NCBI RefSeq assembly: GCF_004138485.1
Contig: NZ_RYEV01000009.1
Location: 310,001-374,000, forward strand
Direction of reading: 5' to 3'
DNA: 64,000 nt
From: Peristeroidobacter soli
Lineage (GTDB): Bacteria; Pseudomonadota; Gammaproteobacteria; Steroidobacterales; Steroidobacteraceae
The notes beneath the pieces are model-generated. The model was not told the origin of the DNA. It was given only the letters and a program-made list of their open reading frames with translations, and ran no database searches. The position numbers were made by a program, and so were the translations under genes. Positions 18,082 to 37,222 of this stretch are shown here, in pieces (within the stretch, counting starts at the first letter, position 1; each line of letters begins with the position of its first letter).

Positions 18082-19038
18082 CTACTGCTCGCGACGTTTG
18101 CTCAGTACGATCAGCGAATCCGAGTGCTGTGCCTCGATGGCAAACGAAGCGCGCAACGCACGCACGAAGCCGTCCGGATCGGTCGCACGAAAATTTCCAC
18201 CGATCCGTAACGATGCCAGTTCGGGATCGGCGATCTGGAGCTGACGATTGTTGTAACGATTGAACTCCGCCACGGCGTCGCCGAGCCGCAGATCGTCGAA
18301 TACCAGATCGCCCACTTGCCAGGCCAACAGTCGCGAGACTTCCGGCTGCGCCACGCGCTCGACTTTCACGCCCGCTCGCTTGGCGTGCGCCAGATGCATC
18401 GCTGCGATCGGCTCAGGGCGCTGCGAACCGAGCGACACGGTCCCTTCGGTGACGAGCACTTCGACATCGTCCGGTTGGCGTATGCGAACTGTAAAGGCCG
18501 TGCCCACGGCACGAACTACAGTTCCCGATGCGATGACATCGAACGGTCGCTGCTTATCGTGCGCGACAGTGAAATGCGCCTCTCCATGCAGCAGGCGCAC
18601 CTCGCGACGAGCGTCGGTAAAGCGCACGCTGACCTTGCTATCCGTGTTGAGCTGGAGGACCGAACCGTCGGCAAGCAGCACGCGGCGAAAGTCGCCAACA
18701 TCGGTTGTGTAAGTGTCAGTTGCCAATAGGTGCCATGTGATCAAACCAATGGTCACCAGCAGCATCGCCGCGGCGGCGAAGCGGATCGTGGATCCACGCA
18801 CACCTGAAGTACGAGAGCGAAGCACGCCGGGGTCGACGCTGGCATCGCCGGGCCGCCACGACTTCAAACCGTCGGCGCTGCGCCAGGCTCGTTCGAGCGC
18901 CAGATAGGCGGTCCGGTGGCGCGCATCGGCGGCCAGCCACGCTTCGAAATCCCGGCGGGTCGTAGCACACTCTTCCATGCGATCGCGGCACACCAGCCAA
19001 CGGGCGGCCTGATCGTCGACGTCAGTACCTGACTTCAT
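18082..19038 (-). CDS. FecR family anti-sigma factor / signal transducer
   Basis: A 318-aa protein. The N-terminal cytoplasmic DUF4880-type domain (RRDFEAWLAADARHRTAYLA) binds the sigma factor. One membrane helix follows (FAAAAMLLVTIGLITWHLLA). The periplasmic FecR domain (YTTDVGDFRRVLLADGSVLQ; EAHFTVAHD; VRAVGTAFTVR; VLVTEGTVSLG) and a C-terminal STN-like segment (LGDAVAEFNRYNNRQLQIAD) contact the receptor. Its ATG overlaps the sigma stop (ATGA), so the two are co-translated. It probably holds the sigma inactive until the receptor is occupied. Confidence 0.93.
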   Translation of the reverse strand: MKSGTDVDDQAARWLVCRDRMEECATTRRDFEAWLAADARHRTAYLALERAWRSADGLKSWRPGDASVDPGVLRSRTSGVRGSTIRFAAAAMLLVTIGLITWHLLATDTYTTDVGDFRRVLLADGSVLQLNTDSKVSVRFTDARREVRLLHGEAHFTVAHDKQRPFDVIASGTVVRAVGTAFTVRIRQPDDVEVLVTEGTVSLGSQRPEPIAAMHLAHAKRAGVKVERVAQPEVSRLLAWQVGDLVFDDLRLGDAVAEFNRYNNRQLQIADPELASLRIGGNFRATDPDGFVRALRASFAIEAQHSDSLIVLSKRREQ

Positions 19039-19610
19039 TGTCTTGCTCTCCGGCGCCAGCGCTGCAGCCAGGACTCCGGCGCGCGAGTCGCGCCCGGTGT
19101 ATCCGCCGCCATGCCCGCCGCACAACGCTTGACCGCTTTGACGAGATGCGCTTCAACCGTCGATATCGAGATACCAAAGTGATTTGCAATTTCCTTCTGC
19201 GACCAGCCATAGACCTTACGTAGCGTGAACACTTCGGCACAGCGCGCCGGCAACTCGGCCACCACCGCCGCTAGGCGCAGCAACTCTTGATGCGCATTCA
19301 CGATTTCGTCGACGCGCGATTCGCAATGTTCGGCGTACAGCGAATCGAGATCCTCGACCGCATCTATCGGCACCACCCGACGGCGACGCATCCAATCGAT
19401 GGCCACATTGCGCGCCGTGGTCAGCGCGAAGCGCTGTATCGCATCGACTCTCAGACGGCGTTCGGACGGCAGACTCAACAGCCTTGCGTAGGTCTCCTGC
19501 AGCAGGTCTTCAAGATCCGCCGATTTGGGCGCGAATCTATGCAAGTACGCACGCAGCAGCCCCTCCAAGCGCAGGATGTCGAGGACGTAGCTGTCATCGG
19601 AGTAGGCCAC
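19035..19610 (-). CDS. ECF RNA polymerase sigma factor (FecI-like)
   Basis: A 191-aa sigma-70 family protein with only regions 2 and 4. Region 2 includes DLEDLLQETYARLLSLP and RFALTTARNVAIDWMRRRR. Region 4 has LPARCAEVFTLRKVYGWSQK followed by the helix-turn-helix EIANHFGISISTVEAHLVKA. This is the classical FecI layout. The start is GTG 19610; no strong ribosome binding site is visible. It heads the operon with FecR, the TonB receptor and the S9 peptidase and presumably drives it. The promoter motif of the second ECF module was not found upstream, so the two sigmas likely differ in specificity. Confidence 0.93.
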   Translation of the reverse strand: MAYSDDSYVLDILRLEGLLRAYLHRFAPKSADLEDLLQETYARLLSLPSERRLRVDAIQRFALTTARNVAIDWMRRRRVVPIDAVEDLDSLYAEHCESRVDEIVNAHQELLRLAAVVAELPARCAEVFTLRKVYGWSQKEIANHFGISISTVEAHLVKAVKRCAAGMAADTPGATRAPESWLQRWRRRARQ

Positions 19611-19846: not shown

Positions 19847-22183
19847 ATGATGCCCCTCCACGGATTCGTTGCGATTTGCCTGGGCCTGGTGAGCGGCGCC
19901 GTAGGCGCGGCTCCACCGACGCCGTCCACCGACCTTCCATTCAAAGGCAAGATCGAGGTTCGTAGCCGGGATTCGATTCCCGCCTGGCCAGCGCCGCGTC
20001 AGGCGCCGAGCCGCGCGCCAAACATCTTGGTCGTACTGCTCGACGACATCGGCTTCGGCGACACCAGTACGTTTGGAGGCGTGGCGCAAACGCCTGAACT
20101 GGACCAGTTGGCGGCGCAGGGGTTGAGGTACAACAACTTCCACACCACCGGGATGTGCTCGCCGACGCGGGCTGCATTGCTGACCGGCCGCAACCACCAT
20201 CGGGTCGGATTCGGCATGATCGCGGATTGGCCCAGCGGCTTTCCCGGCTACGATTCAGTTTGGAAACAGAGCACGGCCTCGATCGCCGAGGTTTTACGTG
20301 AGCATGGCTACAGCACGGCCGCGTTCGGCAAGTGGCACAACACGCCCGATTGGGAGATCCTGCCCACCGGTCCGTTCGAGCGTTGGCCGACGGGCCTGGG
20401 ATTCGACTATTTCTACGGCTTCATGGGGCCGGCCGGGGCGGAGAATCAGTGGGAGCCGACCAAGTTATATCGCAATACCGCGGCTGTGGATCCCCCGCGG
20501 TCAGCTTCCGCCGGATATCACCTGACCACCGACATTACCGATGAGGCGATTCGCTGGGTGCAGACTCACGAATCGGTGGCGTCGGACAAACCGTATTTTC
20601 TCTACTTCGCGCCAGGTGCCGTGCACAGTCCGCATCATGCGCCGGCTGAATGGATTCAGCGGTACCGCGGAAAATTCGATCAGGGGTGGGACGCGCTGAA
20701 CCGCGACATATTTGCGCGTCAGAAAAAGCTCGGCGTCGTCCCCGCCAACGCGATGCTTACGCCGCGGCCGGCGGAGGTTCCTGCTTGGGAGTCGCTGACG
20801 GCCAGTCAGCGGCAGCTCTATGCCCGGCAGATGGAAGTCTACGCCGGCTTCATCGCTCACACCGACCACGAAGTGGGCAGGCTGCTGCAAGTCGTGCGAT
20901 CGACGGCAGATTCCGACAACACCCTGATTCTCTACATCGTCGGAGATAACGGCGCAGCCGGCATTGGCCCCGTGGATGGCTACACCTCCGGAGCGCGAAC
21001 GGTGCAAGAGCAACTGCGTCGCGCGGATGAACTGGGCGGTCCGGCAGTTACGTTCAACTACTATTCGCGCGGCTGGGCCTGGGCAGGCAACACGCCATTC
21101 CGTTACTGGAAGAGCGTTGCTTCACATCTAGGCAGCGTGCGTACGCCGCTCGTGGTGTCATGGCCGGCGCACATCAAAGACAAAGATGGATTGCGAAGCC
21201 AGTTCACTCACGTCAATGACGTGGCCGCGACGCTTTACGAAGTGAGCGGCATCACGCCGCCGAGCGTGGTGAACGGTGTCGCTCAACAGCCGCTCGATGG
21301 CGTCAGCTTCTCCGCTACGTTCGACAGTGCCGCCGTCCTCTCGTCCCATCGCACCCAATATTTCGAGATCCTGGGCAGTCGCGCGCTCTATCACGACGGT
21401 TGGATCGCGACGGCGCGCCATGAATTGCCCGATAAATGGTGGACCGCCACTCACGACCCCGACAGCGACCACGTCAGGGATCGATGGGAGCTGTACGATC
21501 TCTCGACGGACTTTACCGAGGCCACGGATCTCTCCGGGAAATATCCGGACAAGCTGACCGAATTGAAACGTTTGTTCGATCAGGAAGCACGCAAGAATTT
21601 TGTCTATCCGTTGGGCGCATCGTTGTCCGGCAATGGCAAGCCGACGGCGCTCGCGGCAAAAGAACATTTTGTCTACTACCCGGGGACCGGGCGCATTCCA
21701 GTGGCGGCCGTGCCCGATCTCGCACGACGCGACTATCGAATGGAGGCGGACCTGACGATTCCGCCCGACGGGGCGCAAGGAGTGATTGCGTCCATTGGCG
21801 ATCGCACCGGCGGGATGAGCTGGTATGTGAAGGAAGGTCACGCGATCTTCGAGAGTCGAGCGGGCGGTCGTCCAAGCGTGCTCGAGTCGCGCGATCCGTT
21901 ACCTCGCGGCGAGCTGACAGTGGCGTTCGAGTTCATTCAGGATCGAGCCAAGGCCCCCGGTTTCGGCATCGGGCGGTTGTACGTCGACGGCGAACTCACC
22001 AGCGAAGCGGCGCTCCAGATGGAGAAGGGCTCGGACGCCGCGCTCTATATCGGCAGCGCAGGCAGCTCGTCGGTCAGCAGCGCTTTCTCGCCGCCCTTCG
22101 CATTCAGCGGCACCCTGCACCAGCTCAGACTCACGCTGCTCGAAGCGCCGGCGATCTCGTTTCAAAAAAACGCCGCGCCTTGA
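19847..22183 (+). CDS. Arylsulfatase, exported
   Basis: A 778-aa sulfatase with a signal peptide (to about residue 22). The metal-binding start LVVLLDDIGFGD (Asp66/Asp67) is followed by the sulfatase signature CSPTRAALLTGRN (Cys104), where Cys is converted to formylglycine by a maturase not seen here. Later motifs AFGKWHN and GDNGA fit the family. A C-terminal beta-sandwich of about 150 residues (HFVYYPGTGRIP onward) resembles a LamG-like domain common to large bacterial arylsulfatases. It hydrolyses sulfate esters to release sulfate. A start at ATG 19850 is equally possible. It converges on a sulfotransferase with a 2-bp gap. Confidence 0.92.
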   Translation: MMPLHGFVAICLGLVSGAVGAAPPTPSTDLPFKGKIEVRSRDSIPAWPAPRQAPSRAPNILVVLLDDIGFGDTSTFGGVAQTPELDQLAAQGLRYNNFHTTGMCSPTRAALLTGRNHHRVGFGMIADWPSGFPGYDSVWKQSTASIAEVLREHGYSTAAFGKWHNTPDWEILPTGPFERWPTGLGFDYFYGFMGPAGAENQWEPTKLYRNTAAVDPPRSASAGYHLTTDITDEAIRWVQTHESVASDKPYFLYFAPGAVHSPHHAPAEWIQRYRGKFDQGWDALNRDIFARQKKLGVVPANAMLTPRPAEVPAWESLTASQRQLYARQMEVYAGFIAHTDHEVGRLLQVVRSTADSDNTLILYIVGDNGAAGIGPVDGYTSGARTVQEQLRRADELGGPAVTFNYYSRGWAWAGNTPFRYWKSVASHLGSVRTPLVVSWPAHIKDKDGLRSQFTHVNDVAATLYEVSGITPPSVVNGVAQQPLDGVSFSATFDSAAVLSSHRTQYFEILGSRALYHDGWIATARHELPDKWWTATHDPDSDHVRDRWELYDLSTDFTEATDLSGKYPDKLTELKRLFDQEARKNFVYPLGASLSGNGKPTALAAKEHFVYYPGTGRIPVAAVPDLARRDYRMEADLTIPPDGAQGVIASIGDRTGGMSWYVKEGHAIFESRAGGRPSVLESRDPLPRGELTVAFEFIQDRAKAPGFGIGRLYVDGELTSEAALQMEKGSDAALYIGSAGSSSVSSAFSPPFAFSGTLHQLRLTLLEAPAISFQKNAAP

Positions 22184-22185
22184 TC

Positions 22186-23121
22186 TCAGAAGTCCCGTCC
22201 GGCAATCCAGACCGTGGCGTTTTCCGCCAGGGTGTTGGGGTTGCGAGCGCTCGCAACCGCCTTGAATGCTTCGAACTCTTCGTTCGCCATCCTGAAGCTG
22301 CGCTCGAACGCGTGGTAGGCCTGGTAAATTTCATCGAGCGCGTCAACGTCGAGAGGTCGATCCCGAGCCGCCAGGCGCAGCGCTTCGTACACCCGCCGGG
22401 TCCAGGAGTATCCAAAGGTTTCCTTGATCGCCCCGGCGCATCTCTGCCGATACAGGCCAGGCGTCAGAAACTCGTCGATGGCGGTTTCATCCGGCGTCAG
22501 CTCGATCGCCAGCGCATTCTGAAGTCGGGGAATCTGCGCACGCCAGTCCGCCACCAGATTCCGATACTCGATGAAGACACGAGGCAGGCCGCGAGAATAG
22601 CGCTCGGCCAACAGGTTCAGCTTCAGCCAGGCCGCGTTCGCCCACTCGACCGACATCGTCACGCCGCCTCTCTTCCCCATGCTGGCCATCGATGCATGCC
22701 ACTCTCCGGGGTGACGAATACAGATGGCCACCTTGGTGGAGAATCCCTCCCGGCGCGCGGCTTCCAGCCAGAACTGCATCAGTGTCGTAATACTCGGATT
22801 CTTCACCACCAGCGCATCCGCACGAGGACAGCGGCTCAAGAAAGACTGCAGTTGCCGCACGAAATCTTCCTTGACCTGTTCCTCCAGGGCGCATTCTTGA
22901 AAACGCACGGTGGGGTCGCTGGCGAACGTGCCGTGCTGGATCTCGAAAGATCTGTTCAGCATGGCGCCTTCAACAGGTTCCCAGTACCCCTTTGGATTGT
23001 CGCTGTGGGAACCCCGCACCGCCTCGGGGAGCGTACAGCCGCACAGTGACAGAACCCGGGTCAGGGCGGAGGTGCCGGAGCGTCCGGCACCGATGATGAA
23101 TACGATGGCCTTCTCGGGCAT
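22186..23121 (-). CDS. PAPS-dependent sulfotransferase family protein
   Basis: A 311-aa cytoplasmic protein. The N-terminal strand-loop-helix AIVFIIGAGRSGTSALTRVL is the 5'-phosphosulfate binding loop of PAPS sulfotransferases. VAICIRHPGEWHASMA corresponds to the 3'-phosphate region with the conserved Arg-x-P. It would transfer sulfate from PAPS to an unknown acceptor. It lies 95 nt downstream of the S9 peptidase on the same strand and could be the last gene of the receptor-peptidase operon, or have its own promoter. Head-to-head closeness to an arylsulfatase (gene ends 2 bp apart) is notable. Confidence 0.85.
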   Translation of the reverse strand: MPEKAIVFIIGAGRSGTSALTRVLSLCGCTLPEAVRGSHSDNPKGYWEPVEGAMLNRSFEIQHGTFASDPTVRFQECALEEQVKEDFVRQLQSFLSRCPRADALVVKNPSITTLMQFWLEAARREGFSTKVAICIRHPGEWHASMASMGKRGGVTMSVEWANAAWLKLNLLAERYSRGLPRVFIEYRNLVADWRAQIPRLQNALAIELTPDETAIDEFLTPGLYRQRCAGAIKETFGYSWTRRVYEALRLAARDRPLDVDALDEIYQAYHAFERSFRMANEEFEAFKAVASARNPNTLAENATVWIAGRDF

Positions 23122-23216: not shown

Positions 23217-25901
23217 TCACCGGTGCGGTGGCGGTGTCAGTGATGGGGTTATTGGAAGCGCGATGCGCCGGTCGTTCTCGATGAACCATTCCACCGTGCG
23301 CGGCGACGCCCCCTGGCGCGAAGCTCCCCGCTCTGCCGCCCACACGATATTGCCATCCTCGGCTCTGGTCACATCGAGCCACTGGTCGTACCAGGCCAGG
23401 ACGCTCGCCGTGGATTGCCGAACGTTCGCCGGGCTGGAGATGCCGTGCCCTTCGCCCCTGTAGCGCAGGAACTTCACCTCTTTACGCTGCAGATATAACG
23501 CCGTGAACATCATTTCGTATTGCATGAAGTTGATGGCATCCATGTCCGAATGAATCATCAGCAGCGGCGTCGTGATCTGCTTGGCATGGAATAACGGACT
23601 GTTGCTGAGATATCGGTCCGGATTCGCGTACGGGCTCACGCCCAGTCCGAAATCGCCGCCGTCGACTTCATAGCGGACCGAATCGCCGATGTAGGGAATC
23701 AGGTCGGTGTAGAAGTGGTGATAGATCGTGCTCTGGAAATAATCCGAGTACATATCGGACCAGCCGTTGCCCGAGACCACGGCCTTGAACCTCGGCGTCT
23801 GGGTCGCGACCCACAGCGATGAGAAGCCGCCCTGACTGAACCCGAACAGTCCCACCCGGTCCGCATCCGCATAGCCTTGCGCAATCAACGCATCCACGGC
23901 GGGCAACACCACGTCGGTCATTCCGGCGATCGGGCCGGCGACGGTGCGAATCAACTCACTCGGCGTCGTGGGCTGAACCACGATGTAGCCCCGCGCCGCG
24001 AGGATGTTCGGCTCCCACGGCCTCATGTGCTCACCGATATCGTCGATGGCGCGACTCGACGCCAGCCCACAGCGCGGGCGGATGCCGGGATAGACGTCGA
24101 CAATGAGTGGATAACGACGACCCGGCTGATAATCCGGCGGCAGCAGCGCGCAACTCTCCAGCTCCCATGGACCGAGATGCGACTGGACCGTGTACTTGAA
24201 CTGCAGCCACTCGCCCGGTGTGACGGACGCAAGATGCTCGTTGATCTTCGCCAACTGCTGCTGCCGGCCCGACGCGTCTCGCAACAGCAGCTGCGTGACG
24301 GCACCCTTGCGTTGACGGAACAATGCGGTGTGACGCTGCGCCGATCCGGCCATCAGGATGGCATCGGCACCGGGCGAGGTCACGACCGATACGACATCGT
24401 TCGTCTGATCCAACAGCGCCACTCGCAGCGTGTCGGCAGTCTCTTCGATGAACGAGGCGGACGAAGGGAACGGATCGTGCGCCGTGCTCCAGCGCACTGG
24501 ATTCGGATGGTTCCATTTTCCTGGCGCGCGTGCAGTGAGCTTGCGCGGAGCCCGTCCTGGGGAGACCCGCCACACCGCACCGTCGGCCAGCACCGTCAAT
24601 GAATGCGCGTCGGCATTCACCGGAATCGGTGAGATCGAGCCGAGCTTGCCTGTGAGCTTCAGCGCCTCGCCCTTCGCATCGAGCAGGAACCAATGCGGCG
24701 GCGTCGCGCGGACCGTCTTGAAACTGTCTTCGGTCGAGTACGTAAATCGAGGCGCGGCCCGGCGATCCGCCTGCTCGCGCGCGAACACGGCCAGCTTGCC
24801 GTCGATCCACAGCGCGCGCTCCGGCTTTTCAGCGAAGCCTCGCTCGCGCTCGGGGACCAGATCCAGCCCGGTATGCGCATACGGGACGATGGCGCCGGTG
24901 TTTGCTTCCAGCGCATGGAACATTCCCTGGCGCGCGCCGGCCCCCTTCTCCCATGCGAAGAACGCCAGCCGATCCGAATCTTCCGCCCACGCCAGAGTGA
25001 CTGGAAACACATCCTTGTCCGGCACCAGGCGCTGGCCGGCGCCGCCCTGCTTCAGGTCGAACAAATAGAGCTGGGAGCGCGTGAGCACCCAATCCACATC
25101 CGCGACTCCGGGCTGGGGTTGCACGCGCCGGAGCTGACGCAGCCCGGCGAGAAAGCGGCCGTCGTGAGAGGGCTCGAGATTCTCGTAGAGACCGTCCGCC
25201 ATTTGACGCAACTCGCCGGTGCTCGCGTTGGCGCGCAACAGGCGTCCCGGCAGAAATGCATCGTCCTGATCCTGCACATGGCTGCTGACCTCGCTGCCCG
25301 TCGGCTCGACACCCCGCCACGCCTTCTGCCATTCCTGCGCCAGCCGTTCGCCGGTGTGACGACGCAGACTGATGGTGGCAGGCTGATCCCCTTCAGGCAG
25401 CGCGGAGAATACGAACTCGTCGTTGGCGATCCAGGCGGATCGGTGCCGCCCCATGAGCGGCACGGCGGGGGCAACGTTGAACGTCGTCACCTTGCGCAGC
25501 TCCAAGTCATACGCGCCGAGCTCGATCCGTCCGGCCGTCGCGGTGTAGAACAGCAAATAGCGCCCGTTCGGCGAAAAGCCTTCCAGCCAATAGGACTTGA
25601 GCGGATCGGCGGCAAACAACGGCGCCGCGCTGGGCCGGGTCGCGCTCAGATCCACCGCCATCAGTCGCGCGCCGGTGCCTTCGCAAGCACAGAAGCGCCC
25701 GATCCCATAATCCGGCAATTGATCGTAACGAGGGGTCTGCTCCCAGACGATCCAGCGTCCGCCCGGATCGACGGCGGTGTTGTAACCGATCGTCTCCAGC
25801 TGCAACTGGTCCGTGACTGTGTAGGGACGGGCGCCGGCCGCGAACGAGAACAACGCGGCGGTGAGGAGCACGAGCCGAAGCATCGGGGGACGCGCGTTCA
25901 T
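23217..25901 (-). CDS. S9 family (prolyl oligopeptidase) peptidase, secreted
   Basis: An 894-aa protein: signal peptide (LRLVLLTAALFSFAAGA), long beta-propeller region (PNGRYLLFYTA; ANDEFVFSALPEG; EDSDRLAFFAWE) and a C-terminal alpha/beta hydrolase with Ser in FGFSQGGFSS (about Ser689), acid in IHSDMDA (about 786-788) and His in RGEGHGIS (about His819). The ATG at 25901 overlaps the stop of the TonB receptor (ATGA), so transporter and peptidase are made together from one promoter. It probably processes the imported peptide in the periplasm, next to the isopeptidase encoded across the module. About 45 residues after the hydrolase are low-complexity. Confidence 0.92.
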   Translation of the reverse strand: MNARPPMLRLVLLTAALFSFAAGARPYTVTDQLQLETIGYNTAVDPGGRWIVWEQTPRYDQLPDYGIGRFCACEGTGARLMAVDLSATRPSAAPLFAADPLKSYWLEGFSPNGRYLLFYTATAGRIELGAYDLELRKVTTFNVAPAVPLMGRHRSAWIANDEFVFSALPEGDQPATISLRRHTGERLAQEWQKAWRGVEPTGSEVSSHVQDQDDAFLPGRLLRANASTGELRQMADGLYENLEPSHDGRFLAGLRQLRRVQPQPGVADVDWVLTRSQLYLFDLKQGGAGQRLVPDKDVFPVTLAWAEDSDRLAFFAWEKGAGARQGMFHALEANTGAIVPYAHTGLDLVPERERGFAEKPERALWIDGKLAVFAREQADRRAAPRFTYSTEDSFKTVRATPPHWFLLDAKGEALKLTGKLGSISPIPVNADAHSLTVLADGAVWRVSPGRAPRKLTARAPGKWNHPNPVRWSTAHDPFPSSASFIEETADTLRVALLDQTNDVVSVVTSPGADAILMAGSAQRHTALFRQRKGAVTQLLLRDASGRQQQLAKINEHLASVTPGEWLQFKYTVQSHLGPWELESCALLPPDYQPGRRYPLIVDVYPGIRPRCGLASSRAIDDIGEHMRPWEPNILAARGYIVVQPTTPSELIRTVAGPIAGMTDVVLPAVDALIAQGYADADRVGLFGFSQGGFSSLWVATQTPRFKAVVSGNGWSDMYSDYFQSTIYHHFYTDLIPYIGDSVRYEVDGGDFGLGVSPYANPDRYLSNSPLFHAKQITTPLLMIHSDMDAINFMQYEMMFTALYLQRKEVKFLRYRGEGHGISSPANVRQSTASVLAWYDQWLDVTRAEDGNIVWAAERGASRQGASPRTVEWFIENDRRIALPITPSLTPPPHR

Positions 25902-28777
25902 CGCCACGCCTTCACGATGCGCACGGCGGTGTAACGGCCGAGCGGCTGGGCATTGGTCACGTCGAAGCGCAGGCCGCTCATGCCGCCGCGGAACGCTGGC
26001 GGATCGCGATCGAACAGATTGTTGACGACGAAAGTGAGATTCAGATTCCGAAGCCACTCGGCCGAGGCGAGCTGCGCGCCATCGACGCGCAGCGTCGCAT
26101 CGACCGTCGTCCAGGACGAGATGCCGCTCGCCGGAGTGGTGAAGGGATTCGAGTAGCTGTCCGTGTAGTTGACGAACGCGGTGGCCGAATATGCACCACG
26201 CTCCCAACCCATGCTGCCCCTCAATCGAAACGCCACCGGCTTACCCACTTCGTTCAGCAACTCGAACGCCGGACTCGTCACGGTCACGCTGCGGTCATGC
26301 TGGAGCGTGTAGGTGCCGTTCAATCCGAAGTTCAGGCCGCCCACGGCGGTGTGCAAGCGGGTGGCGATCTGCAGATCGATACCGTTGAGCTTCTCGACCG
26401 CGATATTGCTGGTGCGGTTGTCGAACACCACCAGGTTCGGGAACACGGAGAAGATGTTCTGCGCGTGACGGTCGAAGCTGGTGCCGGTGTAGTTGTAGTA
26501 CAGATCGTCGCGGGTCCGGGCATCGATCTGTGCGATGAGCGCCGCGTCCGGGCTGCGATGGACCAGGCCGGCGAAGCGATCCTGGTTCACCAGCACCAGG
26601 TCCTGATCGGTTTCGCTGATGGCCGGCTGATCGATACGTTCCTTGTAGGAGATCTCGAAATAGCTGAGCGAGATTCGGGTGCCGGGCACGAAACTCGGCT
26701 CCAGGTCGACGCCGACGCTCCACGTGCTCGCCTTCTCCGGGCCGAGGTCGGTGTCGTTACCGGTCCAGTTCAAAACGGGCGTGAGTCCACCCGTGGTCGG
26801 ATCCATGCGATTTCGAATCAGCACCACGCTGTCCGGTATCAGCTCGATGAGCGCCGGCGCACGGAACGCTCGCGAGTAGGCGCCTCGCAGCGTCACCGTC
26901 TCGACGGGTTGCAGAACGATGCCGGCCTGTGGATTGACGGTGTCGCCGAAATCGTCGTAGTCGTCGTAGCGGCCGGCCAGCGTCAGTTCGAGTTTTCGCA
27001 ACCCGCGTCGCGTGCCCTGCTCCACCAGCGGCACCAGCAACTCAGCGAACGCCGAGCGCACGGTGCGCTCGGCATCGGCGTATGCGATACCCGCGGACCT
27101 GTCGTGCAGAGCATAGGACTCACGGCGCGCCTCGACACCAATGGCGGCCCGCGGCGTCACTCCTGCAAGAGTAAACAGCGGCCCGTCCGCTATCACCGAA
27201 CCTACCGTCACACGCGCCAGGCTGTCGCGATCGCTCAGATAGTCGGTGGAGAAATAGCCCGCGTCGTAATGGACAGCTTGCCGCGAGTCGGAGTGCGCCT
27301 CGCTGCGGCTGCCATCCACCTTCAGTTCCCACTCGCCGAGTCCCAGCCGCGCGCCGAGCGAAACGCTGTACTGCTCGTTGGTGTTGTCGTCCGCGAACAC
27401 GCTCGAGGTCGGCGCGCCGCCGACGAGCGTCTCTTGTACCGCCTGCATATTCTTATGCGAGTACAGAGCGTCGCCGTGCAGCTCGAGGTTGTCGGTCGCC
27501 TCGAAACTTCCGGACAGCAACGCGGAGTGACGCTTGCTGCGCGGCTGGAGCACCATGCGCAGCGGCGTGCCGCCATAACCGTCGGGTGCGGTCATCAGGC
27601 CGGCATCGACCGCGTCGAAGGGCCAGTCCGACGAGTAATCATAGGAGGCGGCAAATCCGCCGCGCGCCAGTTCCATGCCGGTGATGGTGCTGAACTGCAG
27701 ATGCTCCGCCCCATCGCGGGTGCCGCCGTATTCGATCTGACTTTCCACGCCGTCGAACTGCCGCCGCGTGACCAGGTTGACCACGCCGGCGACCGCGTCG
27801 GCGCCGTACACCGCCGAACGCCCGCCGGTAACGATCTCGACGCGTTCGATCGCCGACAACGGAATCGCCGACACGTCGACGATGCGCCCGAAGGAGCTGC
27901 CCGCCCGCCGCTGTCCATTGACCAGTGTGAGCGTGGAGTCGGCGCCGAGCCCGCGCAGATCGATGCCGGTGGCACGATCGATGTTCTGAACCGCCAGGCG
28001 CGATCCGCCCTCTCTGGCGTGCTGACCGGACGGACTGATGCCGTTGAAGTTCTGCGGCAGGCTGGCGAACAACTGCTCCACCGACGAATAGCCGGTCTTG
28101 GCAATCTCTTCGCGACTGAACTGCAGCGTCGGTGTGGAGGCCTCCTGCACGCCGCGAATGTGAGTGCCGGTGATGAGCACTTCCTCGAGGCTCGCTTCCT
28201 TGAGGGGGTCGCCGGGCTCGCTGCGGTTGCCTTCGGTCAGGCCACTGCGCGAAGTGCCGTCCGGCTCGGAGGCACGCGGGTCGTCCGAGCCCGCACTGGC
28301 CTGCGCGATCCGAGTGAGAGACGCGTCGCGCTCGGCCCGGCTCGTCGAGTGATCCTGGGAACTCTCCGAGCCGCGAACCGCGACGCGTATCGCGACCGTT
28401 CTGCTGTCGAGATATTCCGCCTCCAGGCCGGCGGGTTCGAGCAGCCGCCTCAATGCCTCCTGCGCGGTGTAGCGGCCGGACAAGGCCGCCGCCATGATCC
28501 CTCGACCGACCTTGGTCTCGACGATGATCGTGAGGCCCGACTGCTCGCCCAGTCGGGTCAGCGCCTCGCTCATCGGCATCGTCTGAATGTCGAAGGCGAT
28601 GGTGGGTGCCGGGTTGTCCGCCGCCGCCTGGACTGAGCTCTGCGCGGCGGGCGAAGCCACTGCCGGCGTGGCGGCAAGCGCCATGGCCTGGGCCAGCGTC
28701 CAGGTGATCGCTGTCGTTACACTGAGCTTCGCCGTCGGGCGAAACGATGGCGCTGCCGCCTGTTTGAAACTGTGCAT
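25898..28777 (-). CDS. TonB-dependent receptor with STN domain (AtxF-like context)
   Basis: A 959-aa outer-membrane receptor: signal peptide (to about residue 42), STN domain (residues about 57-130, IAFDIQTMPMSEALTRLGEQ to RTVAIRV), then a linker rich in Ser/Glu and a plug (STPTLQFSREEIAKTGYSSV; TLTLVNGQRRAGSSFGRIVD; IERVEIVTGGRSAVYGADAV). The barrel ends TAVRIVKAW. The STN domain and the divergent sigma/FecR pair make it a signalling transporter. Its promoter motif lies 48 nt upstream. Together with an Atxe2-like isopeptidase this resembles the receptor/isopeptidase pairs of lasso-peptide loci, so a threaded or cyclised peptide is the suspected cargo. Confidence 0.93.
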   Translation of the reverse strand: MHSFKQAAAPSFRPTAKLSVTTAITWTLAQAMALAATPAVASPAAQSSVQAAADNPAPTIAFDIQTMPMSEALTRLGEQSGLTIIVETKVGRGIMAAALSGRYTAQEALRRLLEPAGLEAEYLDSRTVAIRVAVRGSESSQDHSTSRAERDASLTRIAQASAGSDDPRASEPDGTSRSGLTEGNRSEPGDPLKEASLEEVLITGTHIRGVQEASTPTLQFSREEIAKTGYSSVEQLFASLPQNFNGISPSGQHAREGGSRLAVQNIDRATGIDLRGLGADSTLTLVNGQRRAGSSFGRIVDVSAIPLSAIERVEIVTGGRSAVYGADAVAGVVNLVTRRQFDGVESQIEYGGTRDGAEHLQFSTITGMELARGGFAASYDYSSDWPFDAVDAGLMTAPDGYGGTPLRMVLQPRSKRHSALLSGSFEATDNLELHGDALYSHKNMQAVQETLVGGAPTSSVFADDNTNEQYSVSLGARLGLGEWELKVDGSRSEAHSDSRQAVHYDAGYFSTDYLSDRDSLARVTVGSVIADGPLFTLAGVTPRAAIGVEARRESYALHDRSAGIAYADAERTVRSAFAELLVPLVEQGTRRGLRKLELTLAGRYDDYDDFGDTVNPQAGIVLQPVETVTLRGAYSRAFRAPALIELIPDSVVLIRNRMDPTTGGLTPVLNWTGNDTDLGPEKASTWSVGVDLEPSFVPGTRISLSYFEISYKERIDQPAISETDQDLVLVNQDRFAGLVHRSPDAALIAQIDARTRDDLYYNYTGTSFDRHAQNIFSVFPNLVVFDNRTSNIAVEKLNGIDLQIATRLHTAVGGLNFGLNGTYTLQHDRSVTVTSPAFELLNEVGKPVAFRLRGSMGWERGAYSATAFVNYTDSYSNPFTTPASGISSWTTVDATLRVDGAQLASAEWLRNLNLTFVVNNLFDRDPPAFRGGMSGLRFDVTNAQPLGRYTAVRIVKAWR

Positions 28778-28825: not shown

Positions 28826-28859
28826 CTAAGTCTGGCGCGGCGCCTCGTTCGGGTACGGG
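28826..28859 (-). promoter_or_regulatory. ECF-type promoter P2 for the receptor-peptidase operon
   Basis: Read on the minus strand: CCCGTACCCGA, 16 bases, GACTTAG. The GACTTAG block ends 48 nt before the TonB-receptor ATG. The same two blocks with the same 16-base gap occur upstream of the isopeptidase and, on the other strand, of the sigma gene. The arrangement (upstream block about -35, GACTTA about -10) fits an ECF sigma promoter. Confidence 0.75.
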
Positions 28860-28888
28860 TATGCCCGATTACTTTTTTTGCTCCGACT

Positions 28889-28920
28889 CGTACCCGCACC
28901 CCCTGCCGCAAACGACTTAT
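28889..28920 (+). promoter_or_regulatory. ECF-type promoter P1 for the sigma-FecR operon (autoregulatory)
   Basis: Plus strand: CGTACCCGC, 16 bases, GACTTAT, ending 43 nt before the proposed CTG start of the sigma gene. It sits back to back with promoter P2, so the module fires divergently from about 100 bp. Matching of both blocks and exact spacing to P2 and P3 supports autoregulation by the adjacent ECF sigma. Confidence 0.72.
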
Positions 28921-28963
28921 CCTGTGTATGGCCGTTCCGTAGCATCGGCCGGGAGAACGTTCG

Positions 28964-29530
28964 CTGCCAGAACCCTCGGACAACGATCAACCGAAGCTCC
29001 TCGAGGAAGCGTATCAGCGCTACCGGGCCGAGCTGCGGCAGCTCTTTGCCCGCAGGCTGCGCGATCCGCAGGCGGTGGACGATCTGATCCAGGCGATGTA
29101 CGTCTCGCTGAAGAAGACCCGGCCGGCCGACGCTATCCGCGATCCGCGCCGCTATCTGTTCGGCATGGCATGGCACCTGCTGCACGACGCGAACCGGCGG
29201 ATCGCCAGCGAACGCGGTCATCTGGTGGGCTGCAACTTCGATGAGTTCGACGCGCATGCCGAACGTTCCAACCGCCTCTGGGTCGAGGACGACAGCTCAT
29301 CGGACTATCAACGCGCCGAATTCGACCGGTTGCTCGCGCAACTGCCGGCCGCCTGTCAGGTGGCGGTGCTGCGCCAGTACCGCGACAATCGCTCCTATGC
29401 GGAGATCGCCAAAGAGCTTGGCGTCACCTCGCACGCAGTGAAGAAATACATCATGCGTGCGCTCAATCACTTTCGTATGCATTTCAAAACGCTCCAGCTC
29501 GACGCCCGCCAGGAAGGAAAACGCGGATGA
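28964..29530 (+). CDS. ECF RNA polymerase sigma factor (proposed CTG start)
   Basis: A 188-aa sigma if started at CTG 28964. Region 2 is EEAYQRYRAELRQLFARRLR with DPQAVDDLIQAMYVSLKKTR and RRYLFGMAWHLLHDANRR. Region 4 is LPAACQVAVLRQYRDNRSYA with the helix-turn-helix EIAKELGVTSHAVKKYIMRA. The first in-frame ATG is at 29075, inside region 2, so starting there would delete half the domain. Upstream the frame is open only back to 28943. CTG 28964 is preceded by GGGAGA at 7-nt spacing and is 43 nt from promoter P1, matching the 5' leaders of the other two units. It is co-translated with FecR (ATGA). Confidence 0.88.
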   Translation: MPEPSDNDQPKLLEEAYQRYRAELRQLFARRLRDPQAVDDLIQAMYVSLKKTRPADAIRDPRRYLFGMAWHLLHDANRRIASERGHLVGCNFDEFDAHAERSNRLWVEDDSSSDYQRAEFDRLLAQLPAACQVAVLRQYRDNRSYAEIAKELGVTSHAVKKYIMRALNHFRMHFKTLQLDARQEGKRG

Positions 29531-30618
29531 GCAGCAACGACGATTTCGATCCACGCAGCGATGCGGAGCTCGGCGAACAAGCCGCCGAGTGGCTGCTGCG
29601 CCTGGAACAAACGGCCGACGATCCGGACGGCGGGTATCCGAACGAGCACGCCCGCAATACAGCGTTCTTCGACTGGCTGGCACTGTCTCCGGGGCATCTG
29701 CGCACCTTCCTCGAAACGATCGAGATGCATCGACGCATGCGCATGATCGACGCGGACCGCATGATCCAGGTGGAGGCGTTAATACGGCAGCGGGCCGATG
29801 TGATTCCGCTGCGAAAAGAGAAAGCGGCGCGCATGGAGCATCGACCGCCAGTCTCCACGCGCGAAGATCCCGAGCATACAACGACGACAACGGAGGCACG
29901 CGGGCGCGCACCGCTGCGCGTTGCCGCCGCAGTCACGCTCTGCATTCTGGGCGCGGGAGGCTACTTGTGGTCGCAGGCTCCGCACGTGTACACCACCAAT
30001 GTCGGCGAGCAACGCAGTACCAAGCTCGAAGATGGCTCGTTCATCTATCTCAACACGGATTCGAAGGTCGAAGTCGACCTGACCAAGCACGCTCGCAACA
30101 TCCGGCTGGTGCGGGGCGAGGCGTTGTTCATCGTGGAGCACGACTCTTCGCGGCCGTTCACGGTTGCAGCCGGCGGCACTTCGGTGCGCGCACTCGGCAC
30201 TCAGTTCAATGTCAGACGGCGCGAGCAAGGAGCCGATGTGGCCGTCGTGGAAGGCAGCGTGCAAGTGACGGCGATAGATGTGCAGTCCGACGTCCCGCCT
30301 CGCAAGCTCGCGGCCGGCGAAGATGTCAGAGTGGAAAAAGGACAATTCGCCGCTCGCGCCGGCCAATCCGTGGCGGACACTCTCGCCTGGAGACAGCGCC
30401 GGCTCGTGTTCCACGACGCGCCGTTGGCCGACGTCGCGGCGGAGTTCAATCGCTACAACCGCACGAAGATTCGCATCGAGGGCGACGACGCAAGACAGAT
30501 CCTGTTATCGGGAATCTTCGATGCGGACCGGCCGCAGGCGTTGATGCTGTATGCCGCCAGCAATGCCGACCTGGCCGTGGAACCCGTCGGCAACGACTGG
30601 GTGATTCGCGAGCGCTGA
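29527..30618 (+). CDS. FecR family anti-sigma factor / signal transducer
   Basis: A 363-aa protein: N-terminal sigma-binding domain (NTAFFDWLALSPGHLRTFLE), a Glu/Thr-rich linker, one membrane helix (RVAAAVTLCILGAGGYLWSQ, about 136-155), and a periplasmic FecR domain (YTTNVGEQRSTKLEDGSFIY; GEALFIVEHDSSRPF; VRALGTQFNVR; VAVVEGSVQV). A C-terminal STN-like segment follows (LADVAAEFNRYNRTKIRIEG). It overlaps the sigma stop by 4 bp. By analogy with AtxI-type regulators in lasso loci it would keep the sigma inactive until the receptor STN domain signals cargo binding. Confidence 0.93.
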   Translation: MSSNDDFDPRSDAELGEQAAEWLLRLEQTADDPDGGYPNEHARNTAFFDWLALSPGHLRTFLETIEMHRRMRMIDADRMIQVEALIRQRADVIPLRKEKAARMEHRPPVSTREDPEHTTTTTEARGRAPLRVAAAVTLCILGAGGYLWSQAPHVYTTNVGEQRSTKLEDGSFIYLNTDSKVEVDLTKHARNIRLVRGEALFIVEHDSSRPFTVAAGGTSVRALGTQFNVRRREQGADVAVVEGSVQVTAIDVQSDVPPRKLAAGEDVRVEKGQFAARAGQSVADTLAWRQRRLVFHDAPLADVAAEFNRYNRTKIRIEGDDARQILLSGIFDADRPQALMLYAASNADLAVEPVGNDWVIRER

Positions 30619-30656
30619 GCCGCGAATCACCCGTGCCTGAATCGGGGCGGTCGCCT

Positions 30657-32831
30657 TCAGCGCTGCGCACTCTCGCAGTACCAAGGTGACCCGTTCGCGC
30701 TGGGTTGTGCCCCGCCCTCGCCAAACAACCGGCACTGATTGCCGCGCATGGTCCGCCACCGCTCGTACTGAGCGGCATCGCCGGACAGGTTGCTCTCGAC
30801 CCCTCGCAGCCAGAAATTCAGCCAGTCGATGTTCCGATGATAGATGGCGAGTCGATGCGCCGGCTGCCACTTGATGTGATATTCGTCGGGATGCACATAC
30901 ATCTCGACGCTGCGCCCGGCACGATCGAGCGCACTGAAAGTCTCCGCCGAGCCGCCGATGACTTCATGGTCCGCGACGTTCAGCAACAACGGCGCAGTGA
31001 TGCGATCCGTGTTGTAAACGACGGATAGCGAGCGCCAGCGTTCGCTGTAGGGATCGCCCAACCCCCACTTTTCCCACGCACGCCAGCCGCCGCCTGCCTG
31101 TGTCATGAACACATCCGAGGGCACCATGGCCGCGCTGCTGGCGATCGCGACGGTCAGGGCCGGCATGTTGAACAAGGCGTAGTTCGTCGTCTCGGCCCCG
31201 AACGACAATCCGGTCAACGCCACGCGCCGCCCGTCGATATCGCCACGCTCCAGGAGTTTGCGCACCAGCGCATCGAGCCCGGCCTGAACGAGCCGTTTTT
31301 CCGAGTCGTTCTTACGCAAGGCGCTATTCAATTCACCCGGCACGAGCGTCGCGAGAAGATTGCCATCCATGGGCGCGTCGACACAAAGCACTGCGACCCC
31401 CTGCCCGGCCAGCGGCAGGATCGGATATTCGTCGCCGACTCCGCCGCGCAGGAATCCTGAACAGCGATAGGTGACCATCGCGAGCGGCAAGCGCTGGCCG
31501 GCGAGATCGTCGCGCCTCACCAGAAAGCCGCGGATGGTCACACTGGGCGAAGCGAGCGCATCGATCTGCGTCACTGTATAACCGCCAGCACGCCGCGCGA
31601 CGGACTCGTTCGGATCGTACAGCGTTCGCAAAGTGCCGCGCTCCACATCGATCGCGACCAGTCGCGTGGGTTTTCTCAGCTCCTCGTGGAAGCAGACCAG
31701 ATCACGGCCGCTCAGCGCGCAATCCGGGACCAGCGAGCGCGTCTCCGCTACAAATATCCGACGCACTGCCCCGGAGCGAACATTCCAGGCGTAAAGCGTC
31801 TGCGGGCCTGGCAGGATCGACTCCGATCGGACGAACAGCACTTCATCCTTACGCCACAGCGCGGTGCTGAAACGAACGCCCGTACACTCAGGCGCACCAC
31901 ATACAACAGGCTTGCTCGAAGGCGTCAGCGCGGCGACGAGTGTCACCGGAGGATACGTGCCTTGCATCGCTGGATTGCGCGCCTCGAACCAGGCGCGTCG
32001 ACCTTTATCATCGGTCGCGCGCGGTTCGCGCTCGTTAGCAGGCGTCGGCGTTGACCCTGCACTCGCCTGCTCCGCCGGAATCTCCTGATAGCGCAGCGTG
32101 CGCAGGTCCACGCTGAAATTTCGTTCTTGTGCGTCGTGGGTACTCGACTTCCTCGCCATGGTGCGAGCATCCACTCCAAAGTCGCGCGGCACCACCGGTC
32201 GTGTCGATATCGGCAGTGAGAAACGCTCATCGAACAAGAACCCCGACAGCCCCTCTCGTTGCAGCTCGGCCTGCGCGCGCTCGGGATCCGGGCCCACGTT
32301 CACGACCAGGGAAGCGCCGTCAGTACTCACTTCGATGCGCTGAATCTCACCATTGAAATCCGCCACCTGCTGCGTGGCGCGATCCGCTATCGAAGTGCGC
32401 CACAACTCGCTGCGGCCGTTGTGATCTTTTCGATAGAACAGCGCGGCGCCGTCCGGCGACCACAGCGGCTTCGGATGCACGATGTGACCGTTGATGTAGC
32501 CGTACAGATTGGGAAGGATCGGATCGCCGGCGTCGGCGAGCTCACGAACCTCGCCGGTCGCTATGGAGACCAGCATCCAGCGCTGCACATAACTGTTGGC
32601 ACTGGGGTCGCCGCGCCGCGCGACGAAAGCGGCCAGTCGCCCATCGGGCGAGATCGACATCGCCTCGAGATCCGTCAATGTGGCCAGGTCCTCCGCCGTA
32701 ACTCCGGGCGCAGTTTGCGCCCGGAGTGGCAGCGAGAGACCGCCGACAAACAAGGTGAGCGCCACGATGGCGCCGCGAACGGCGGCCGCCGTGTGCAGCC
32801 TGGTTTCCGCTATCCGTCTTGAACCGTGCAT
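30657..32831 (-). CDS. Atxe2-like lasso peptide isopeptidase / S9-type hydrolase
   Basis: A 724-aa exported protein (signal region residues about 17-39). It has an N-terminal beta-propeller and a C-terminal hydrolase with nucleophile Ser543 in LTGLSFGAETTN, acidic Asp621/Glu623 in NVADHEVIGG, and His652 in HPDEYHIKWQPAHRLAIYHR. That last block, followed by NIDWLNFWLRG and QYERWRTMR, is the hallmark I associate with Atxe2-family isopeptidases, which cleave the macrolactam bond of lasso peptides. It has its own copy of the module promoter 44 nt upstream and a GGGAAG at 8 nt. It converges on the FecR gene. If not a lasso isopeptidase, it is an S9 peptidase for another cyclic or branched peptide. 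Confidence 0.82.
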   Translation of the reverse strand: MHGSRRIAETRLHTAAAVRGAIVALTLFVGGLSLPLRAQTAPGVTAEDLATLTDLEAMSISPDGRLAAFVARRGDPSANSYVQRWMLVSIATGEVRELADAGDPILPNLYGYINGHIVHPKPLWSPDGAALFYRKDHNGRSELWRTSIADRATQQVADFNGEIQRIEVSTDGASLVVNVGPDPERAQAELQREGLSGFLFDERFSLPISTRPVVPRDFGVDARTMARKSSTHDAQERNFSVDLRTLRYQEIPAEQASAGSTPTPANEREPRATDDKGRRAWFEARNPAMQGTYPPVTLVAALTPSSKPVVCGAPECTGVRFSTALWRKDEVLFVRSESILPGPQTLYAWNVRSGAVRRIFVAETRSLVPDCALSGRDLVCFHEELRKPTRLVAIDVERGTLRTLYDPNESVARRAGGYTVTQIDALASPSVTIRGFLVRRDDLAGQRLPLAMVTYRCSGFLRGGVGDEYPILPLAGQGVAVLCVDAPMDGNLLATLVPGELNSALRKNDSEKRLVQAGLDALVRKLLERGDIDGRRVALTGLSFGAETTNYALFNMPALTVAIASSAAMVPSDVFMTQAGGGWRAWEKWGLGDPYSERWRSLSVVYNTDRITAPLLLNVADHEVIGGSAETFSALDRAGRSVEMYVHPDEYHIKWQPAHRLAIYHRNIDWLNFWLRGVESNLSGDAAQYERWRTMRGNQCRLFGEGGAQPSANGSPWYCESAQR

Positions 32832-32875
32832 CGATGTGACTTCCCGGGTTTGGCACTATGGATGTGCCTCATCAG

Positions 32876-32909
32876 CTAAGTCGCTTTTCCGCACGGGGTC
32901 GGGTACGGG
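32876..32909 (-). promoter_or_regulatory. ECF-type promoter P3 for the isopeptidase gene
   Basis: Minus strand: CCCGTACCCGA, 16 bases, GACTTAG, ending 44 nt before the isopeptidase ATG. The blocks are identical in sequence and spacing to P2, while the 16 intervening bases are unrelated (A/C/G-rich here, GC-rich in P2). That argues for functional conservation rather than recent duplication. Confidence 0.75.
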
Positions 32910-35069: not shown

Positions 35070-36497
35070 CTACGCCGGCTGGTCCCAGCGCACCGTTGCC
35101 TCCAGGCCGCCGTCTCGATGATTGCTCAACTGTACGGTCGCGCCGTTTCTGTCCGCGAGCATGCGGGCGATCGTCAATCCCAGGCCCGCTCCGCCGGTCT
35201 CGCGCGAGCGCGATCGGTCCACCCGCACGAAGGGATCGAACACGCGCTCCAGCATCTCCGGCGGCAACCCCGGCCCGTGGTCCCGGACGCGCACCACGAC
35301 GGACTGTCCGTGACGCTCCGAAGAAACGAGCGCCGAACCGCCATACTTGACCGCGTTCTCCAGCAAGTTGGAAAACAGGCGCCGCGTCGCGAGCGGCCGG
35401 ACACTCAGCACCGCCCGGCTGCCGCCCACGAAGCTGGCATCGCTGCCGGCATCGACGGCGTCTTCGACCAGACTTTCGAGCAACGAGTCCAGATCCAGGC
35501 GCACACGCGGCTCGGCCGTATCCGCGCTACGTGCGAGCTCCAGCCCCTCATCGATCAGCGCCTTCATTTCCCGCAGATCCGTCACCAGTCGCTCGCGCAG
35601 CTCCGGGTCGTCGACCCGCTCCATTCGCAAACGCAAGCGCGTCAGCGGCGTTTGCAGATCGTGGGTGATGGCGGCGAGCATTCTGGTGCGCTCGACCAGG
35701 TGATCCTGGAGCTGCTTTTGCATGGCGTTGAAGGCTTGAGCGGCCTGCCGCAGCTCGGTCGGGCCGTGCACCGGAAGCGGTGGCCGATCGAGATTCTGTC
35801 CGAGCTCGGAAGCCGCATCGGACAACCGGATCAGCGGTCGCGTCGCGAATCGCGCAACCACATAGGCGAGCGTCACGATAGCCAATGCGAGCAGCACGAT
35901 GCCGGTCGGCTGGAACAAGGGGCTGCGCTCGCGCTCACCCCAGATCGTGCCCAGGCTCAACTTCATGACCTCGCCGTCACTCAGGCGCAGCTCGACGATC
36001 CGACACTGCGGTGGCACGGATCGAGTTCTCCTGGGCGGCTGGCTGCGCGTTCCCCAAGCGAGCTCCAGCGCTTGCCGGACCTCTTTGCTCTCCCAGACTT
36101 TGCGCAGTTCCTCCGACGCGCGCGCCTCGGAGGAGAAACAGGTTTCCAGAGCGCTGTGGTAAATGCCCGCGTGCGCCGAAACACCGCCACGCGCAGCCAG
36201 AACGCTCTCCAGCGCCGCATCTCGTTGCCCAGCCTTCGCATCCGGCGCGAGCTTGATTCCACCCGGGCCGGCGCTGACAAAAAGCTTCGGGCGTATCTCG
36301 GCGGGAACGTTATCCAGCAGCACCGAGTACACCTCGATCTGATCGGCGGCGCCCTCGAGCCACTGTCGCTGGAAGTCGCGCTCCGCGATGTAGGAAGTGA
36401 CGATGGCCGCGAACACCGCCGCCGCCGCCATGCCCAATGCCAGCATCGCGAAGATCCGGCCCGTCATGGACCGGAAGAAGCTCCGCACCCCGCTCAT
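35070..36497 (-). CDS. Sensor histidine kinase (EnvZ-like, HAMP)
   Basis: A 475-aa kinase with two membrane helices (about residues 13-36 and 199-216) bracketing a periplasmic domain of about 160 residues. A HAMP linker follows, then the phospho-acceptor His279 in ITHDLQTPLTRLRLRME and an ATPase domain (N box LLENAVKYG; G1 VRDHGPGLP; F box DPFVRVDRSRS; G2 GAGLGLTI). It phosphorylates the response regulator whose gene overlaps it by 4 bp (ATGA). It lies divergent from the MacAB-type export operon, reminiscent of MacRS-MacABC in Stenotrophomonas, so it probably senses an exported toxic compound or envelope stress. Confidence 0.93.
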   Translation of the reverse strand: MSGVRSFFRSMTGRIFAMLALGMAAAAVFAAIVTSYIAERDFQRQWLEGAADQIEVYSVLLDNVPAEIRPKLFVSAGPGGIKLAPDAKAGQRDAALESVLAARGGVSAHAGIYHSALETCFSSEARASEELRKVWESKEVRQALELAWGTRSQPPRRTRSVPPQCRIVELRLSDGEVMKLSLGTIWGERERSPLFQPTGIVLLALAIVTLAYVVARFATRPLIRLSDAASELGQNLDRPPLPVHGPTELRQAAQAFNAMQKQLQDHLVERTRMLAAITHDLQTPLTRLRLRMERVDDPELRERLVTDLREMKALIDEGLELARSADTAEPRVRLDLDSLLESLVEDAVDAGSDASFVGGSRAVLSVRPLATRRLFSNLLENAVKYGGSALVSSERHGQSVVVRVRDHGPGLPPEMLERVFDPFVRVDRSRSRETGGAGLGLTIARMLADRNGATVQLSNHRDGGLEATVRWDQPA

Positions 36498-37222
36498 TTC
36501 ATGCTCACAGCGGCCGCCAGCACATAACCCTCGTTGCGTACCGTCTTGATCAAGGCGGACTCCGCTTGATCGTCGCCGAGCTTGTGGCGCAGACGGCTCA
36601 CCTGAAGATCGATGGCCCGGTGCTGGGATTCGTAGGGTCGTCCGGTGCTGAGCGACACCAATTGCTCGCGGGTGAGCACCCGGTTGGGATGCGAAATGAA
36701 CACTCGCAACAGCCGGAACTCGGCCCCCGAGAGCACCACGACCCGCCCGCGCGGATCGATCAAGTGCCGCTTCTGAAGATCCAGGGTCCAGCCGGAGAAC
36801 TGCGCGACTCCGCCACTGATGGCCTGCAGGTTGGCTGGCAGCGAATGCGTCCGGCGCAGCACGTTACGAATGCGAGCCAGCAACTCGCGAGGCTCGAAGG
36901 GTTTCGTGAGGTAGTCATCCGCCCCCATCTCCAGTCCCAGCACGCGGTCGATGGGCTCGCTGCGCGCCGTGAGCATGATCACGGGCGTGCTGGCCCGCGA
37001 CCGCAGCTCGCGACACAGCGCCAGGCCGTCCTCCCTGGGCAAATTCAGGTCGAGCACGATCAGGTCCGCGTGCTCGCGATCCAGCGTGCGCCGCATCTCC
37101 TGACCGTTGCTCGCGGTGCTGACGCTGTAGCCCGCCTTGCTCAATTGCTCGGCCAACATGAGCCGGATGTCGTTGTCATCGTCGACGACCAGCAATCGAT
37201 GCCCGGAACCCTGCTCACTCAT
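36494..37222 (-). CDS. OmpR/PhoB-family response regulator
   Basis: A 242-aa regulator. The receiver domain has an acidic pocket VVDDDND, the phospho-acceptor Asp58 in IVLDLNLPREDG, and the conserved Lys in LTKPFEPREL. The C-terminal winged helix (VVLSGAEFRLLRVFISHPNR; SQHRAIDLQVSRLRHKLGDD) is OmpR-type. It is the first gene of the minus-strand operon with the kinase and is divergent from macA, which is its likely target through the intergenic inverted repeat. Confidence 0.95.
   Translation of the reverse strand: MSEQGSGHRLLVVDDDNDIRLMLAEQLSKAGYSVSTASNGQEMRRTLDREHADLIVLDLNLPREDGLALCRELRSRASTPVIMLTARSEPIDRVLGLEMGADDYLTKPFEPRELLARIRNVLRRTHSLPANLQAISGGVAQFSGWTLDLQKRHLIDPRGRVVVLSGAEFRLLRVFISHPNRVLTREQLVSLSTGRPYESQHRAIDLQVSRLRHKLGDDQAESALIKTVRNEGYVLAAAVSMK

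Follow-up and report, generated by a model that had tools for sequence, protein, structure and literature searches.

One putative promoter type upstream of an ECF sigma factor, a TonB receptor and a lasso peptide isopeptidase in Peristeroidobacter soli

The Peristeroidobacter soli window (the whole stretch of 64,000 nucleotides analysed here) carries the two-part motif CGTACCCG-N17-GACTTA upstream of an ECF sigma factor gene, a TonB-dependent receptor gene and an isopeptidase gene, which raises the question of whether the sigma factor reads all three sites, including the one in front of its own gene. As in FecI-FecR-FecA of E. coli and FecIRA-like systems, the locus combines an ECF sigma factor, a FecR-domain regulator and an STN-type TonB receptor with a target promoter, here a putative one, in front of the receptor gene (PMC9249621). 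In E. coli, according to that source, sigma70 reads fecIR, Fur controls it, autoregulation is absent and FecI controls a single promoter; two further papers describe FecI-like groups as non-autoregulating (PMC3817407, PMC8103513). A non-autoregulated FecIRA-like operon in Stenotrophomonas is termed atypical by its authors (PMC12772443); this wording implies that they expect autoregulation, and hence that the rule against it is less settled. In contrast to E. coli fec, one putative promoter type here precedes the sigma factor, the receptor and a third gene, and the accessory genes are peptidases. The self-matching putative promoter in front of the sigma factor gene would argue against non-autoregulation of the E. 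coli type.

We estimate a probability of about 0.85 that the locus is a cell-surface signalling module of the FecI/FecR/FecA type whose dedicated sigma factor is autoregulated. In the mechanism we propose, ligand at the TonB receptor would send a signal via the STN domain to FecR, which would then free or activate the sigma factor, and sigma-RNA polymerase would read three private promoters with a -35 element of CGTACCCG and a -10 element of GACTTA. The output of copy 1 would be more sigma and FecR, amounting to positive feedback, and that of copies 2 and 3 more receptor and S9 peptidase, and more isopeptidase, respectively. This reading draws on the sites themselves, their uniqueness and orientation, the partial conservation of the back-to-back pair and a link between the sigma recognition helix and the -35 element, all of which are observed in the sequence; from these we infer that the three sites are promoters read by the adjacent sigma factor.

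Gene content and motif copies

The sigma factor matched Sigma70_r2 with 25.4 bits (cut-off 24) and r4_2 with 49 bits (cut-off 25.7), and matched the NCBIfam FecI models below their cut-offs. The adjoining FecR gene overlaps it by 4 nt, and the STN domain of the receptor scored 29.7 bits (cut-off 28.4). The locus therefore contains an ECF sigma factor with regions 2 and 4, an adjoining FecR-domain regulator and an STN TonB receptor, as in FecI/FecR/FecA-type signalling. The true start of the S9 peptidase behind the receptor is probably near 25900. We observed no in-frame ATG, GTG or TTG between the stop codon upstream of the sigma factor frame (28940-28942) and its conserved part, and the sigma factor likely starts at the CTG at 28964, behind GGGAGAA. 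Such a start would perhaps result in low sigma synthesis.

Table 1. Genes and putative promoter elements of the module, in window coordinates
Feature	Position	Strand	Basis
ECF sigma factor	28964..29530	+	Pfam Sigma70_r2 and r4_2
FecR-type sigma regulator	29527..30618	+	Pfam FecR, 83.1 bits (cut-off 24)
TonB-dependent receptor, N-terminal STN signalling domain	25898..28777	-	Pfam STN, Plug, beta-barrel
S9 prolyl-oligopeptidase-type peptidase, behind receptor	23217..26207 (listed frame)	-	Pfam Peptidase_S9, 95.6 bits
AtxE2-family lasso peptide isopeptidase, convergent with FecR	30657..32831	-	NCBIfam NF033523
Promoter copy 1 (putative), sigma-FecR	28889..28919	+	Exact match; 44 nt before inferred CTG
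Promoter copy 2 (putative), TonB receptor and downstream S9 peptidase	28827..28857	-	49 nt before ATG at 28777
Promoter copy 3 (putative), isopeptidase	32877..32907	-	45 nt before ATG at 32831
31-bp stretch separating the two back-to-back -35 boxes, partly A/T-rich (ATTACTTTTTTTGC)	28858..28888	.	Sequence
OmpR-type response regulator	36494-37222		

A pattern search of the whole window found three exact copies of the motif, as the first-pass annotation of this DNA had reported, and 100 dinucleotide-shuffled versions of the window contained none. That annotation had placed the plus-strand site correctly and had rightly described copies 1 and 2 as back to back in the sigma/receptor spacer, whereas it had set both minus-strand sites one base too low. 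Distances from the -10 element to the start codon, for which it had given 43, 48 and 44 nt, are each one nucleotide longer: 44 nt for the sigma factor (assuming the CTG start), 49 nt for the receptor and 45 nt for the isopeptidase. All three copies are oriented toward gene starts 44-49 nt away. The 17-base spacers share 7, 3 and 6 bases in pairwise comparison, in agreement with the description of the intervening bases as unrelated.

We also scanned the genome (9,374,132 bases) and found the motif three times exactly, never with one mismatch and 28 times with two mismatches; the reversed pattern, used as a control, gave 122 matches with up to two mismatches. Scaling the 28 two-mismatch hits over the 819 two-mismatch variants leads to an expectation of ~0.03 exact genome matches. 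The two-mismatch hits look like background, with 25 of the 27 examined falling within open frames that are 150 codons or longer. A relaxed pattern, GTACCC-N17..19-GNCTTA, found the same three sites only in the whole genome, compared to 12 matches for its reversed control.

An exact search found no copy of the motif at the window's first ECF operon (sigma at 19035-19610, minus strand), from which it had been noted to be missing, and we observed no pair common to the upstream regions of sigma and those of the receptor or S9 peptidase in that operon. A sulfatase and a sulfotransferase are encoded between the two ECF modules (19847-23121). Elsewhere in the window, a 1,176-aa frame (50074-53604, minus strand) joins a lysylphosphatidylglycerol-synthase membrane domain to P-type cation ATPase domains that follow it, an unusual fusion if real.

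Related loci and the wider pattern of private pairs

We compared the locus with related modules in a genome of the same genus (G008) and a genome of the same family (G023). The sigma factor and FecR of the G008 locus are 57% and 56% identical to those of the window, and its receptor matches that of the window over the N-terminal part only (35%). In the divergent spacer of G008, CGTACCCG-N17-GTCTTA faces the sigma factor gene and CGTACCCG-N16-GTCTTA the receptor gene, with spacings counted by eye. The -35 pair is thus kept in this relative but the -10 element is altered, and since GTCTTA occurs on both sides, both copies depart from the window's -10 identically. The ATG of the G008 orthologue lies five bases past GTCTTA (L069 2401-2420), so its sigma transcript may either lack a leader or start further in. 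In G023, the module whose sigma factor is closest (39%) combines CCACCCG-N17 with GTCTTA toward the sigma factor and with ATCTTA toward the receptor. A second module, C150a, shows CGTACCCG and, equally spaced in both directions, GGTCTA; its sigma side reads CGTACCCG with GGTCTATA.

The G023 loci tested contain no match to the isopeptidase, and the contig that carries the G008 locus is 4,867 bp long. The M13 peptidase, histidine kinase and response regulator encoded upstream of the isopeptidase gave no matches at E up to 1e-6 in four related loci (L069, which is short, L070, L074 and L219), indicating that the surroundings of the module are not conserved. A class-level search for sigma orthologues (369 genomes, E up to 1e-28) returned the own genome only, and an order-level search (296 genomes) the own genome and G023 only; a search of genome contigs returned eight distant loci and no further close relative.

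The own genome (G000) has 104 FecR hits in 9.37 Mb, and its sigma/FecR/TonB modules represent a very large expansion. We searched the regions before each sigma factor and before its own receptor for an exact 7+6 base two-box match at equal spacing (14-18 nt). Such a match was present in 38 of 162 modules, compared to 82 of 10,916 cross-module pairings. The excess was found in each genome: 14/89 exact pairs versus 56/7,806 cross pairings in G000 (binomial p 4e-15), 6/20 versus 2/380 in G008 (p 8e-10) and 18/53 versus 24/2,730 in G023 (p 5e-24), the p values being rough because cross pairings are not independent. Exact pairs occur in divergent and collinear modules alike. The other 124 modules had no exact pair by this strict criterion. 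Among the 38 pairs, a few (L196 and L118 are examples) resemble coding-like sequence that matches by chance.

Own-genome modules were derived from the 104 FecR hits by dropping one partial hit (103), of which 99 have a sigma factor and 91 a receptor in range; part of the 43 hits in G008 and all but one of the 53 in G023 were taken. An earlier own-genome version with other search windows and a less clean profile gave 11/91 exact pairs versus 52/8,166 cross pairings, the difference in search windows accounting for the 91 versus 89 modules. With loosely placed search windows, sigma-receptor exact pairs numbered 12/157 versus 11/785 for cross pairings, and comparison of sigma factors with other genes gave no clear excess (15/1,003 versus 65/5,015). 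Among 29 divergent spacers (20 own, nine from G008 and G023), seven had exact pairs, compared to 5/812 cross pairings; the G008 orthologue escaped this test because of its two unequal spacings. Overall, the focal module is a clear instance of a recurrent design, with sigma factor and receptor under a common putative private promoter. The motif had been thought specific to this module; its sequence is indeed private, but the design is shared with other modules that have private pairs of their own.

Recognition helix, -35 element and alternative readers

Profile searches of the three genomes gave 189 hits, corresponding to 185 distinct sigma factors, of which 183 entered the dyad comparison below and 162 have a receptor. 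The recognition helix is TSHAVKKY in the focal sigma factor, TPHAVKKY in its G008 orthologue and TVHAVKKY in G023 C150a, and all three go with CGTACCCG. GTACCCG occurs within 200 nt upstream of three of the four HAV-helix sigma factors and two of the 181 others; this count includes the cases that suggested the rule, and only the fourth was absent from the table that suggested it, whose motifs were chosen by eye from automatic lists. Upstream of the fourth is CGTACCAA-N17-GTCTTA, repeated in part before its receptor. GGTATCC-like boxes accompany SR.[MQ].KKY helices in 12 of 12 cases, compared to 66 of 173 others under the same loose pattern, and a weaker rule pairs RM[VA]R helices with ATTTCC in only 4 of 11 cases (20/174 others).

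Across the 38 exact-pair modules, -35 similarity tracks recognition-helix similarity (Mantel rho 0.40, 0/2000 permutations), also when the test is partial on the rest of the sigma factor (0.32, 0/2000 permutations), although some of these modules are orthologues across genomes and not fully independent. For sigma factors that are <40% identical outside the helix, a dyad is shared by 41 of 283 pairs with 7-10 identical helix residues and by 1,349 of 15,284 pairs with fewer, which amounts to a modest association of dyad sharing with helix identity.

The covariation of the -35 element with the sigma helix is one of several points against the idea that the motif is a transcription-factor site, for example for the OmpR-type response regulator, and not a sigma promoter. 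That regulator and a histidine kinase are indeed encoded upstream of the M13 peptidase and isopeptidase; however, they are unmatched in the four related loci searched, one of them short, the two halves of the motif are unrelated, and every copy faces a start codon at a similar distance, so we regard this idea as improbable. Only slightly less improbable is that the promoters are real but common to, or mainly read by, another sigma factor of this genome. The 104 FecR hits, the many paralogous sigma factors and the similar -35 boxes of some sister modules (GTACCTA, TACCCCTTTG) would favour such sharing, but none of the 101 other own-genome sigma factors recovered has the HAV helix, and the full motif occurs nowhere else in the genome. 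Chance, or recent copying of a single regulatory cassette, would fit the adjacency of two copies but is very improbable in light of the ~0.03 exact matches expected and of the spacers, whose sharing of just 3-7 of 17 bases leaves no recent duplication visible.

Hence, we favour reading by the adjacent sigma factor. The self-contained regulon proposed for it in the first-pass annotation gains support, at the level of sequence, from the uniqueness of the motif, the -35 pair in G008 and the helix/-35 link. Those FecI-type sigma factors that have a private pair look autoregulated and insulated, and in this they resemble the orthogonal ECF pairs of Rhodius et al. (2013), with sigma-specific two-part promoters and insulated paralogues (PMC3817407). 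FecI-like groups were left out of that promoter-code work because they were held to be non-autoregulating (PMC3817407), whereas the FecI/FecR-type modules described here have likely self promoters. Modules with their own promoter two or three times would supply the training data that such work has lacked, and might yield many orthogonal pairs of sigma factor and promoter. A limited literature search brought up no paper in which we recognised an account of private promoter pairs for FecI/FecR modules.

The isopeptidase and its lasso context

The third putative target, annotated at first simply as an isopeptidase, belongs to the AtxE2 family of lasso peptide isopeptidases (NF033523, 536.7 bits, cut-off 400). 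It aligned with AtxE2 in the PDB over 660 residues (E 3.7e-79), and its S543, E623 and H652 align (counted by eye) with S527, E610 and H638 of AtxE2, which we take to be the Ser-Glu-His triad. Since the gene is convergent with FecR and lies behind the M13 peptidase, kinase and response regulator genes, it would be untied to the sigma factor unless it had its own promoter; copy 3 sits exactly where such a promoter would be needed, in the gap following the M13 peptidase stop.

Isopeptidase clusters are described as carrying TonB receptors and sigma/anti-sigma pairs, the role of the enzyme being unsettled (PMC9266682). Like the astexin, sphingopyxin and benenodin clusters (PMC9266682), the locus has an AtxE2-type isopeptidase beside a TonB receptor and a sigma/anti-sigma pair. 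By contrast with those clusters, no lasso B gene is near, an amendment to the initial picture of this target, and the isopeptidase gene is preceded by a separate copy of the module's putative promoter. PF13471 (lasso B) has only two matches in the genome, at C2:1056428 and C2:1398055, and none near the focal isopeptidase (the window is on C8), where we found no lasso-synthesis genes. This absence suggests import and opening of foreign lasso-like peptides, and the ligand would then be a lasso-like or other peptide, opened and digested by the isopeptidase and the S9 peptidase. With an isopeptidase under a receptor-linked sigma factor and away from lasso-synthesis genes, a role in uptake and opening becomes directly testable.

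Taken together, the results may point to a lineage with up to ~100 insulated, self-activating FecI-type switches per genome, in which each sigma factor would read only its own promoter through a helix-readable -35 code, the rule of FecI-like non-autoregulation would fail, and the focal locus would be a dedicated circuit through which foreign lasso peptides are sensed, taken up and opened; for this combined picture we put the odds slightly below even.

The genome has seven AtxE2-type isopeptidases above cut-off, on C1, C2, C3, C5 and C8, each near a sigma/FecR/receptor module, and only the one at C2:1052449 adjoins lasso B and C genes. In three cases (L161, L096, L115) the isopeptidase is directly behind the receptor on the same strand. 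In three others (L157, L134, L093) we found no convincing sigma-matched site upstream of the isopeptidase; 12-of-13 matches there were rejected as palindromic or coding-like. The focal isopeptidase is the only one of the seven for which an own copy of the putative module promoter was found. At L117 (G000:C2:1388055-1398381), where no isopeptidase scored above cut-off, a tandem pair of FecR genes lies behind one sigma factor, and a second sigma/FecR/TonB set has an Asn-synthase-type gene and the second PF13471 match next to it.
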